This document shows, piece by piece, positions 75 to 33,747 of a stretch of 64,000 nucleotides of DNA (positions within the stretch are counted from its first letter, which is position 1; each line of letters begins with the position of its first letter). Location: NCBI RefSeq assembly GCF_001761545.1, contig NZ_CP017326.1, positions 1,178,001 through 1,242,000 on the forward strand. Reading direction: 5' to 3'. Both the position numbers and the translations under genes were made by a program. This stretch comes from Weissella soli. GTDB lineage: Bacteria > Bacillota > Bacilli > Lactobacillales > Lactobacillaceae. Below the pieces are notes generated by a model that had not been told where the DNA came from, did not search any database, and worked only from the letters and a program-made list of their open reading frames with translations.

Positions 75-106
75 GATAACTTCTTTCTGTTGAGCACAAG
101 ACATAA

Positions 107-220
107 AAAAACCGGCAGTCATGAGAGACTACCGGTTTTCGCTTCAGTTGGCTATGATGATAGTCTGGTCTCCAGCTATCCCTAACCAACGAGGTGAATC
201 CTTTGCTAGTCTCTCGGACT
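107..220 (-). promoter_or_regulatory. PyrR-type pyrimidine attenuator (binding loop, intermediate hairpin, terminator)
   Basis: On the minus strand, AGTCCGAGAGACT at 220-208 matches the conserved PyrR-binding loop found before pyr genes in Gram-positives. A second hairpin (GATAGCTGG/CCAGACTATC, 178-157) follows. Then comes an intrinsic terminator whose arms AAAACCGGTAGTC/GACTGCCGGTTTT (138-107) end in a T run. About 30 nt separate it from the pyrB start. In known systems UMP-bound PyrR stabilises the anti-antiterminator so that the terminator forms. The layout fits that mechanism; which helix is the antiterminator was not computed. Confidence 0.8.
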
Positions 221-249
221 AAATTAAAAGGTTCTTTTTCGTTAAACTG

Positions 250-30912: not shown

Positions 30913-32364
30913 TTAACCGATGGCTAAAATGATAAAGTTCAACAAGAAGAACAATGTCACTACCCAAAGAATTGGACTGATCTCATTAAATTTCCGCTTA
31001 GCGGCCTTAATGACAATGAAGAAGATAAAGCCAGCTGCGATACCATACGAAATTGAGTATGAAAACGCCATGAAGGCTGAAGTAAAGAATGCTGGAATCG
31101 CAATTTCAATGTCATCCCAGTTAATTTGCTTAAATTCACCCATCATCATGATACCTACAATAACCAAAATCGGTGCGGTAGCGGCAGATGGAATGACATT
31201 CACAAATGGTGCAAAGATGATTGAAACTAAGAACCCTAGCGCAACCACAACTGAAGTTAATCCAGTACGACCACCGGCCTTGATTCCTGAGGCCGATTCG
31301 ATAAACGTGGTTGTGTTTGAAGTACCCAAGATACCAGCAAACATCGTTGCGAAAGTATCTGCAACCAAACCACGATCCATCTTTGACTTAAAGCCCTTAC
31401 CTTCATAAAACTCTTTTTGATCAGCTTCTGAGAAAATACCAGTGGTCAAACCAGTACCAATAAATGTACCAATGGCATCAAACAAGCCTGAAAGTCCCAT
31501 TGAGAAGACTGTCAAAATCACGACCAGGATATTCTTAGGTGTGGTAAACATTGACCACAGGCCATCCTTACCCAAGGCTTGCCCAAAAATCTGACCAAAA
31601 TCAGTAAACATGGCATTGAATGATGAACTCCACTCAATATGCGTGCTTGTCACTCCCATGGGAATCCCAATCAACGTTGTCGCGATGACGGCAATCAAGA
31701 AAGCACCCCGCACTTGGAAAACCACCAACAAGACCAAGATAACGAGACTAATCAAAGCCAAGACAACAGCTGGTGTGTTGAAAGTTGCAATTTCAGGTGT
31801 TACCCCACCATTACCAACCATACTTGAAATCTTTGCGGCCCCTTGCCCATGAAAGGCTTGGTTATTCAATGAGATGATGTTGTCTGGATCAATCAAAAAA
31901 TTCAAGAAACCGGCATTTTTCAAACCGATATAAGCAATGAACAATCCGATACCCGCTGCAATGGCATGCTTCAATTGATCAGGAATCCCCTTCACAATCA
32001 TTGAACGCACCTTAGTCAAAGTGATAATGACATCAACCAAGCCAACCAAGAAAACCATTCCCAAGGCTTGTTGCCATGTAAAGCCAAGTCCAAAAACAAT
32101 CGTGTAAGTGAACATCGCTTGCATACCAATTGAAGGTGCTAATGCATATGGCAAATTAGCAAACAACCCCATAATCAACGTACCAATGACCGCCGTCAAG
32201 ATCGTTGCTAGGAAGACCCCTTGTGAAGGCATTCCCGTCATCGATAGCACGGCTGGGTTGAGGAAGATAATGTAAGCCATTGCAACGAAGGTTGTTAGCC
32301 CAGCAATGACTTCCGTACGCGCTGTCGTATGGTTCTCTGACAACTTAAAAAAACGCTCTAACAT
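30913..32364 (-). CDS. AzgA-type purine permease (NCS2; adenine/guanine/hypoxanthine)
   Basis: A 483-residue membrane transporter with about 13 hydrophobic segments. Family hallmarks are TEVIAGLTTFVAMAYIIF at the start, ALAPSIGMQAMFTY, IPDQLKHAIAAGIGLFIAYIG, and the substrate-site region FIESASGIKAGGRTGL. These fit the AzgA/PbuG/PbuO branch (COG2252) better than UraA/PbuX. The ATG at 32364 follows AAGGAG with an 11-nt gap. It has its own promoter (32587-32615), an attenuated leader (32468-32575) and a terminator. Confidence 0.92.
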   Translation of the reverse strand: MLERFFKLSENHTTARTEVIAGLTTFVAMAYIIFLNPAVLSMTGMPSQGVFLATILTAVIGTLIMGLFANLPYALAPSIGMQAMFTYTIVFGLGFTWQQALGMVFLVGLVDVIITLTKVRSMIVKGIPDQLKHAIAAGIGLFIAYIGLKNAGFLNFLIDPDNIISLNNQAFHGQGAAKISSMVGNGGVTPEIATFNTPAVVLALISLVILVLLVVFQVRGAFLIAVIATTLIGIPMGVTSTHIEWSSSFNAMFTDFGQIFGQALGKDGLWSMFTTPKNILVVILTVFSMGLSGLFDAIGTFIGTGLTTGIFSEADQKEFYEGKGFKSKMDRGLVADTFATMFAGILGTSNTTTFIESASGIKAGGRTGLTSVVVALGFLVSIIFAPFVNVIPSAATAPILVIVGIMMMGEFKQINWDDIEIAIPAFFTSAFMAFSYSISYGIAAGFIFFIVIKAAKRKFNEISPILWVVTLFFLLNFIILAIG

Positions 32365-32467
32365 AAGACAAAAAACTCCTTAAAATATTCAGAATTTCAA
32401 ATAGTTTCTATCGTCACTATGCTGCCAGAATAAGTGCATCCATTATTACGAAATACCCATAAAAATG

Positions 32468-32575
32468 AAAAACGACGCTTCTAAAAAGATAGAAGGCGTC
32501 GTCAAAAAGTAAAACCCATGACAGGCTTTATTTTTTTGAGTCTGTGGCAAAACACGTTAACGACCCTAAATAAAT
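32468..32575 (-). promoter_or_regulatory. Structured leader with transcription attenuator before the purine permease
   Basis: Between promoter and gene the leader ends in an intrinsic terminator (ACGACGCCTTCT/AGAAGCGTCGT then TTTTT, 32502-32461), about 100 nt before the start codon. Upstream, GGGTC (32566-32562) can pair with GACTC (32542-32538) around an inner GTG/CAC stem, giving a compact hairpin. The same GGGTCGT (32566-32560) can instead pair with ACGACGCC (32502-32495), the 5' arm of the terminator. These exclusive pairings are the hallmark of a riboswitch or protein-controlled attenuator. It does not match the purine (xpt-type) consensus I know. Confidence 0.6.
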
Positions 32576-32586
32576 TCAATGTTAAA

Positions 32587-32615
32587 ACTATAGGTTTATT
32601 TGCAATTAAAGTCAA
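32587..32615 (-). promoter_or_regulatory. Promoter of the purine permease
   Basis: TTGACT (32615-32610) and TATAGT (32592-32587) with a 17-bp spacer, near-consensus. It leaves a leader of about 215 nt before the permease start. Confidence 0.85.
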
Positions 32616-32637: not shown

Positions 32638-33747
32638 TTAGGGTTGCAACGTTGAGATGTCCCAAACACCGGCTATCAATAATTGATTCCATAGCTCATC
32701 CATTGAACGACCACTGCTTACCACATACCCTGATTGGTTTCCTGGGTGATAAAAGACACGCCACTCAGGTTTGATGTGCCAGTGGTTTTGAATCTTGTCA
32801 ATTTGTGCACTATTGAATGGCAATAGAATGGCTTGTTGGACTTCACGGACTGGCGCTAAAGCCTGCCCCACTAGCGCCCGCAGATGATTTTCATAAACTG
32901 AAATATTCGCGGTTGTCGAATAGAGCACCGTGTTATCATCCAAGCCTGCCAAGACATCCCGCACATAAAGATTACCGGTATCGCTATACAAAAAAGCGAC
33001 GGTATAAGCGCCGACAGACGCAATATTTTGACCAATTTGCGCGACGGTATCATTGACTGCCTCGACCACATCTGCCGATAATTGGTCCGTACTAGACCAC
33101 AGCACCGGCGCGAGCTGATCGACTGATTTGCGATAATTGATGGGATAAATCACAACTTCACCCTGGGCATCGCGCACCGCAGTGACGATTAACTCGGTTA
33201 CATCATCTAGCCAACTCTCGACTAGGATGGTGCCCCCATCAATCAATGGTGCAACCAGGCCTAAATCATATTCGCCACGCAAGATCACCCGCGATGAATG
33301 GGGCCCATGTTTAAAAATCGGCTTCACAACCACCGGATAACCTAACTGATGCGCATTGATCGAAATCTCTTCTAATGAAGTAGCTAATGCATATGGCAAA
33401 ATGTTGACACTGCTGGCTTCTAAGAAGGCTCTTGAAATGGCATGATCATCGGTCATTTCCAACAAATTGATCCCTTGTGGCAACGACAAGTCAGCTATTT
33501 TTTGGATCATCTCTAAAGTCAGCCATGTATTCGCGTAGGTAATGACACTCGAAATGCCAACAAAAGTTGCCCACTCATCAGCACCATGAAATTGATAATC
33601 CGCCTCACTTGGCGTGATTGGCTCAATTTTATCGGTATATGTGGCTACGGTATAGCCCAAGTTGTGAGCAGTCTGAATCAAATAGTGACTACTACTACGA
33701 TCACCTAAAATTCCAATAACACTGCCTGGTAATAATTCTAAACTCAT
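32638..33747 (-). CDS. PurK-like ATP-grasp protein with degenerate active site
   Basis: 369 residues that follow the PurK fold along their length. There is a pre-ATP-grasp Rossmann start (GSVIGILGDRSSSHYL), a central ATP-grasp domain with VESWLDDVTELI, and TTANISVYENHLRALVGQAL matching the PurK 'SQFEQHLRAI.GLPL' helix. A C-terminal domain ends with YHPGNQSGYV. Key residues are lost: the metal-binding Glu in 'MECF' aligns with Ala251. 'NELAPR.HNSGH' reads VRDVLAGLDDNTVLY (262-276), and the 'GGYDGRG' loop reads FKHGPHSS. It is probably not an active carboxylase ligase. It is the last gene of the cydDC-hydrolase string, 12 nt after the hydrolase. Confidence 0.7.
   Translation of the reverse strand: MSLELLPGSVIGILGDRSSSHYLIQTAHNLGYTVATYTDKIEPITPSEADYQFHGADEWATFVGISSVITYANTWLTLEMIQKIADLSLPQGINLLEMTDDHAISRAFLEASSVNILPYALATSLEEISINAHQLGYPVVVKPIFKHGPHSSRVILRGEYDLGLVAPLIDGGTILVESWLDDVTELIVTAVRDAQGEVVIYPINYRKSVDQLAPVLWSSTDQLSADVVEAVNDTVAQIGQNIASVGAYTVAFLYSDTGNLYVRDVLAGLDDNTVLYSTTANISVYENHLRALVGQALAPVREVQQAILLPFNSAQIDKIQNHWHIKPEWRVFYHPGNQSGYVVSSGRSMDELWNQLLIAGVWDISTLQP

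Follow-up and report, generated by a model that had tools for sequence, protein, structure and literature searches.

The window analysed here, a 64,000-nucleotide stretch of the Weissella soli genome, carries on its minus strand a gene for a permease of 483 amino acids, preceded by a leader that contains a promoter, a short hairpin and an intrinsic terminator (Table 1). The permease matches the Pfam family Xan_ur_permease (2.5e-35) and, among PDB entries, the adenine/guanine permeases AZG1 (1.6e-51) and AZG2 (4.1e-44), similarities which indicate that it belongs to the AZG adenine/guanine type. Directly upstream of the azgA leader lies a gene for a PurK-like ATP-grasp protein, which scores 107.9 bits, far below the PurK equivalog cut-off of 375, and is possibly a diverged or repurposed enzyme.

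The original prediction for this locus was an unassigned riboswitch or attenuator, in which GGGTCGT (32566-32560) would pair with either of two mutually exclusive partners, GACTC (32542-32538) or ACGACGCC (32502-32495); all of the letters that it described are found at these positions on the minus strand. The promoter, described as near-consensus, agrees with the consensus at 10 of 12 positions, and transcription is expected to start near 32580. The terminator, described as strong, is borne out by the predicted energy of its hairpin (Table 1) and by its T-rich tail; it was not detected by a simple terminator scan of the window. The A-rich linker and the AAAGCC/GGGTTT hairpin are likewise present, with a sequence that is not conserved in relatives. 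Although the logic of two competing partners was recognised correctly, the decisive feature of the leader, a near-invariant hairpin of 25-29 nt, had been overlooked.

Table 1. Features of the azgA leader, its neighbourhood and the related loci discussed in the text
Feature	Position	Strand	Description and basis
Promoter	32587..32615	-	-35 TTGACT 32615-32610, 17-nt spacing, -10 TATAGT 32592-32587; consensus scan
Sensor hairpin	32538..32566	-	GGGUC-GUUAACGUGUUUUGCCACA-GACUC; conservation and kept pairs
Sensor stem P1	32566-32562 with 32542-32538	-	
Possible inner stem P2	GUG 32555-32553 with CAC 32546-32544	-	Loop UUUUGC
Spacer hairpin	32504..32536	-	Includes AAAGCC/GGGUUU; fold
UUGACGACGCC	32495..32505	-	Antiterminator partner of GGGUCGUUAA (32566-32557) and terminator 5' arm; duplex and truncated-transcript folds
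Intrinsic terminator	32461..32503	-	Stem 32503-32471, U-rich tail TTTCATTTTT 32470-32461; hairpin predicted at -16.6 kcal/mol
azgA ribosome-binding site	32376..32381	-	AAGGAG; sequence
AzgA-type purine permease gene	30913..32364	-	ORF
PurK-like ATP-grasp protein gene	32638-33747	-	
PyrR-type attenuator	103-235	-	48.1 bits
PyrR-type attenuator (L174)	G000:C1:55659-55795	+	49.2 bits
Purine-riboswitch-like leader, L116	3034-3129	-	
Purine-riboswitch-like leader, L117	3036-3131	-	
Purine-riboswitch-like leader, L119	1316-1411	+	

When the leader was compared by BLAST with 28 Weissella genomes, 26 of them, including the source genome, matched strongly, with the matches centred on the same 26-30 nt. 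This block has the 29-nt consensus NAGUC-GUUAACGUGUUYYGCCACA-GACUN, the inner 25 letters of which are nearly invariant, and 22 columns are invariant among the 21 distinct block sequences. Its edges are sharp: mean column identity in 24 leaders is 94% over 32566-32538, compared with 46% upstream and 43% downstream, and the surrounding leader is otherwise unalignable among relatives. The pairs of P1 and P2 are kept in 95% of cells. Because most of the sensor stem never varies, covariation, proposed as a check on the original prediction, turned out to be modest; only the outermost P1 pair varies on both sides, and 23 of 500 shuffles score as high, which amounts to weak support for the stem rather than to a refutation. 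The 120-nt leader folds better than its shuffles (z = -3.9; 1/200), whereas the part preceding the terminator is unremarkable (z = -1.0). The folding signal thus comes mostly from the terminator, and folding alone therefore shows no more than chance for the sensor part, so that the case for the latter rests on conservation. In our judgement, the strongest evidence for the element is comparative. The block also contains an invariant GTG, from which a short ORF could start, with the position of the ribosome setting the fold of the leader. Such leader-peptide attenuation is, nevertheless, highly improbable: no ribosome-binding site upstream of the GTG is shared among the leaders, invariance is equal across codon positions, and conservation stops at the end of the block.

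The same block occurs ahead of azgA outside the genus, in two Periweissella genomes and one Furfurilactobacillus (F. siliginis), bringing to 29 the number of genomes in which, as is characteristic of riboswitches, a conserved structured element occupies the 5' leader of a metabolically related gene. Each genome has a single copy, ahead of an azgA-type permease gene, with the exception of one fragmented draft. In this 66%-complete assembly (G008), the promoter and block (L022, contig G008:C24) run directly into the interior of a yebC-like gene from position ~1503 onward, a junction that is probably a misassembly. The Weissella genomes that do not have the block (G002 and G024) also do not have a close AzgA orthologue, and the five element-bearing AzgA proteins included in a tree of 31 form one group (support 100/99). 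A covariance model of the block scores 45.9-55.3 bits in 27 of 397 Lactobacillaceae genomes, the next best score being 27.5 bits, and this search yielded no convincing diverged copies past the 27 strong matches. An exact scan of the genomes of 84,980 species yielded, outside lactobacilli, just four isolated matches in unrelated phyla, approximately the level of chance, and a pattern search with 3 mismatches returned mostly noise, as judged by a reversed-pattern control. No plasmid-borne copies of the block were found. An antisense RNA acting in trans was considered and rejected, there being no second locus above chance.

Terminators could be placed in 27 of 28 leaders, mostly by automatic folding of windows before T-runs; four (L009, L011, L013 and L062) were placed by eye, and for L024 the second hairpin was taken. 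Their 5' arms pair with the 5' half of the conserved hairpin at a mean of -10.9 kcal/mol, compared with -5.3 kcal/mol for 125 other terminators drawn from the window and related loci (Mann-Whitney p = 2e-11, for sequences that are related rather than independent). Arm shuffles, combined over 13 group representatives with the groups set by hand, gave p = 1.8e-5. The plain count of pairing leaders, 27 of 27, is weakened because shuffled arms often pair with the element too (73% at >=5 pairs versus 100% observed); the observed pairing exceeds that of shuffled arms in extent (11.0 versus 7.8 pairs, p = 0.0004). The complementary arm variants GTTAACGAC, GTTGACGAC, GTTAGCGAC, GTTAATGAC and GTTGATGGC all pair with the invariant GUCGUUAAC via G-U, and the substitutions seen within this common register, A-to-G or C-to-T, preserve the pairing as G-U. 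Other registers are used in the W. paramesenteroides group (arm CATGTTGGC against GUUAACGUG), in one Periweissella (GACTC against GAGUC) and in W. oryzae (L006), where the 3' half of the hairpin is engaged. The block, itself invariant, is thus matched with terminators that have taken shape independently, and the two exclusive partners originally proposed for GGGTCGT have their counterparts in orthologous leaders. Two leaders fit the scheme less well: in W. halotolerans (L025) there is no clear terminator and P1 has 3 standard pairs only, and in P. beninensis (L112) the arm pairs weakly with the element.

These arms also bear on a reading in which a repressor binds the block as a DNA operator early in the transcribed region, the terminator being incidental. 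The block lies 14-30 nt downstream of the -10 element in most leaders (21 of 24 orthologous leaders have a similar promoter at this distance), and its AGTC...GACT forms a short inverted repeat, both as an operator would have it. Yet the core is no palindrome, the outer pairs include some G-U, which preserve RNA pairing but not DNA symmetry, and an operator leaves unexplained why the terminator arms follow the letters of the block's transcribed strand. We regard an operator as improbable and an RNA attenuator, whether read by a ligand or by a protein, as very probable.

Folding of truncated transcripts is consistent with such an RNA attenuator. For transcripts that stop within the terminator 5' arm, all 27 leaders show pairing of the element with that arm and hardly any P1; completion of the terminator restores P1 to a probability >0.5 in 14 leaders. 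In the source leader, the probability of P1 rises from 0.00 at the arm to 0.94 with the complete terminator. The W. paramesenteroides group runs counter to this, since there the complete leader still has the antiterminator as its minimum-energy fold. The loss and return of P1 predict OFF control by anything that holds P1, and the expression platform is, as in riboswitches, exclusive with the sensor fold, a result obtained with shuffle controls.

With the conserved hairpin, the terminators and their complementarity established computationally, a mechanism can be proposed. The 29-nt sensor hairpin would be transcribed first and, if left unheld, its 5' half would pair with the terminator 5' arm, giving an antiterminator and read-through into azgA (ON). 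A signal stabilising the hairpin would leave the arm free, so that the terminator could form near 32461 and expression of the permease would be turned OFF. We infer this direction of control, as well as a small-molecule signal bound directly. The signal is most likely a purine base or nucleotide, a natural guess because the permease is of the AZG type and its nearest orthologues are under purine riboswitches or PurR-box-like sites. Our preferred reading, which we consider reasonably probable, is that the leader acts in cis as a transcription attenuator of azgA, with a hairpin that probably senses a purine directly. For direct metabolite sensing as such, which would make the hairpin a candidate very small orphan riboswitch, we see slightly better than even chances.

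Searched with Rfam 15, the leader matched no family at the gathering score, in line with the "unassigned" of the original prediction, which the comparison with relatives supports as well. The models of the purine (RF00167), ZTP (pfl) and preQ1 riboswitches found no match either at the gathering score or at E<=10. Purine riboswitches likewise reside at purine genes, among them those of close AzgA orthologues from neighbouring genera, but their three-way junction and core letters are absent from the azgA leader, as had been noted for the xpt/purine core, though the genome has three genuine copies elsewhere, preceding genes that we take to be guaB, a uracil-xanthine permease gene and guaA. The faint resemblance to the ZTP motif noted earlier holds for the letters GGGTCGT, with which the hairpin begins, and not for the model as a whole; the leader has one conserved domain instead of two. 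The preQ1-I riboswitch is a very small one-hairpin aptamer coupled to a terminator, and the azgA leader resembles it in having a small single-hairpin sensor and a terminator, but differs from it in being without a conserved 3' segment able to form the pseudoknot. To our knowledge, no natural aptamer is as small as a hairpin of 27-29 nt would be (preQ1-I, ~34 nt), which speaks against the riboswitch reading.

PyrR-binding attenuators exert OFF control of a nucleobase gene through an anti-antiterminator, the same logic as that proposed here. The leader itself was rejected as a PyrR site: it scores 19.5 bits against RF00515 (gathering score 54), compared with 48-49 bits for the genome's own sites, and it is without the GAGAGG of a genuine site (L174). 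The genome's two PyrR-type attenuators (Table 1) fall below the gathering score themselves, which seems to miss the PyrR sites of this genus. The ligand control originally claimed for the leader is our inference as well, and the hairpin could be read by a protein instead: in the same attenuator, a purine-sensing RNA-binding protein might hold the hairpin in a PyrR-like manner. We consider this rather unlikely, albeit a serious rival. Short hairpins with a conserved loop are typical protein sites, and conservation is confined to one small hairpin here; however, there is one site per genome with one target gene, no dedicated protein gene adjoins it in the window, and the scores make PyrR itself unlikely.

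Regulation by a directly sensed purine, the reading that we prefer, would set this azgA gene apart from its orthologues outside Weissella, Periweissella and F. siliginis. PurR is encoded in the source genome, and no PurR box (CGAAC-containing) occurs within 330 nt upstream of azgA. Among the nearest AzgA orthologues outside the group, one (L121) has a full purine riboswitch (55 bits) and three of a neighbouring clade (L116, L117 and L119) have purine-riboswitch-like leaders (31-34.5 bits, gathering score 37). In the latter, J3/1 is preceded by an additional base and the P3 loop is too short to make the usual loop-loop contact; they may represent a purine riboswitch variant with changed specificity. 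Some azgA orthologues of lactobacilli are preceded by ACACGAACATT-type PurR-box-like sites, and the remaining AzgA orthologues have neither a purine riboswitch nor a PurR-box-like site in the stretch read. Upstream of the genome's two other AzgA-type genes (L108 and L109) there are PurR-box-like letters (AAACGAACTATA and ACACGAACATAA) and no hairpin, suggesting that these paralogues are apparently under different control.

The motif was not found in the literature searched, and the main texts of two ncRNA screens, of 26 and 50 genomes (PMC8632094 and PMC11109978), do not mention Weissella, Leuconostoc, lactobacilli or permease. We tentatively propose, at somewhat less than even chances, a new riboswitch class, the whole aptamer of which is one hairpin of ~27-29 nt that senses a purine and replaces control by the purine riboswitch or PurR at the orthologous permease gene in Weissella, Periweissella and F. 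siliginis. If a purine is bound directly, this new class would include one of the smallest natural aptamers, and a single permease gene would have come under three different regulators (the purine riboswitch, PurR or a new RNA) in members of the same bacterial family. If the hairpin is bound by a protein, it would be an equivalent of the PyrR attenuator for purines. Both possibilities are amenable to testing, on a short RNA and in lactic acid bacteria associated with food.
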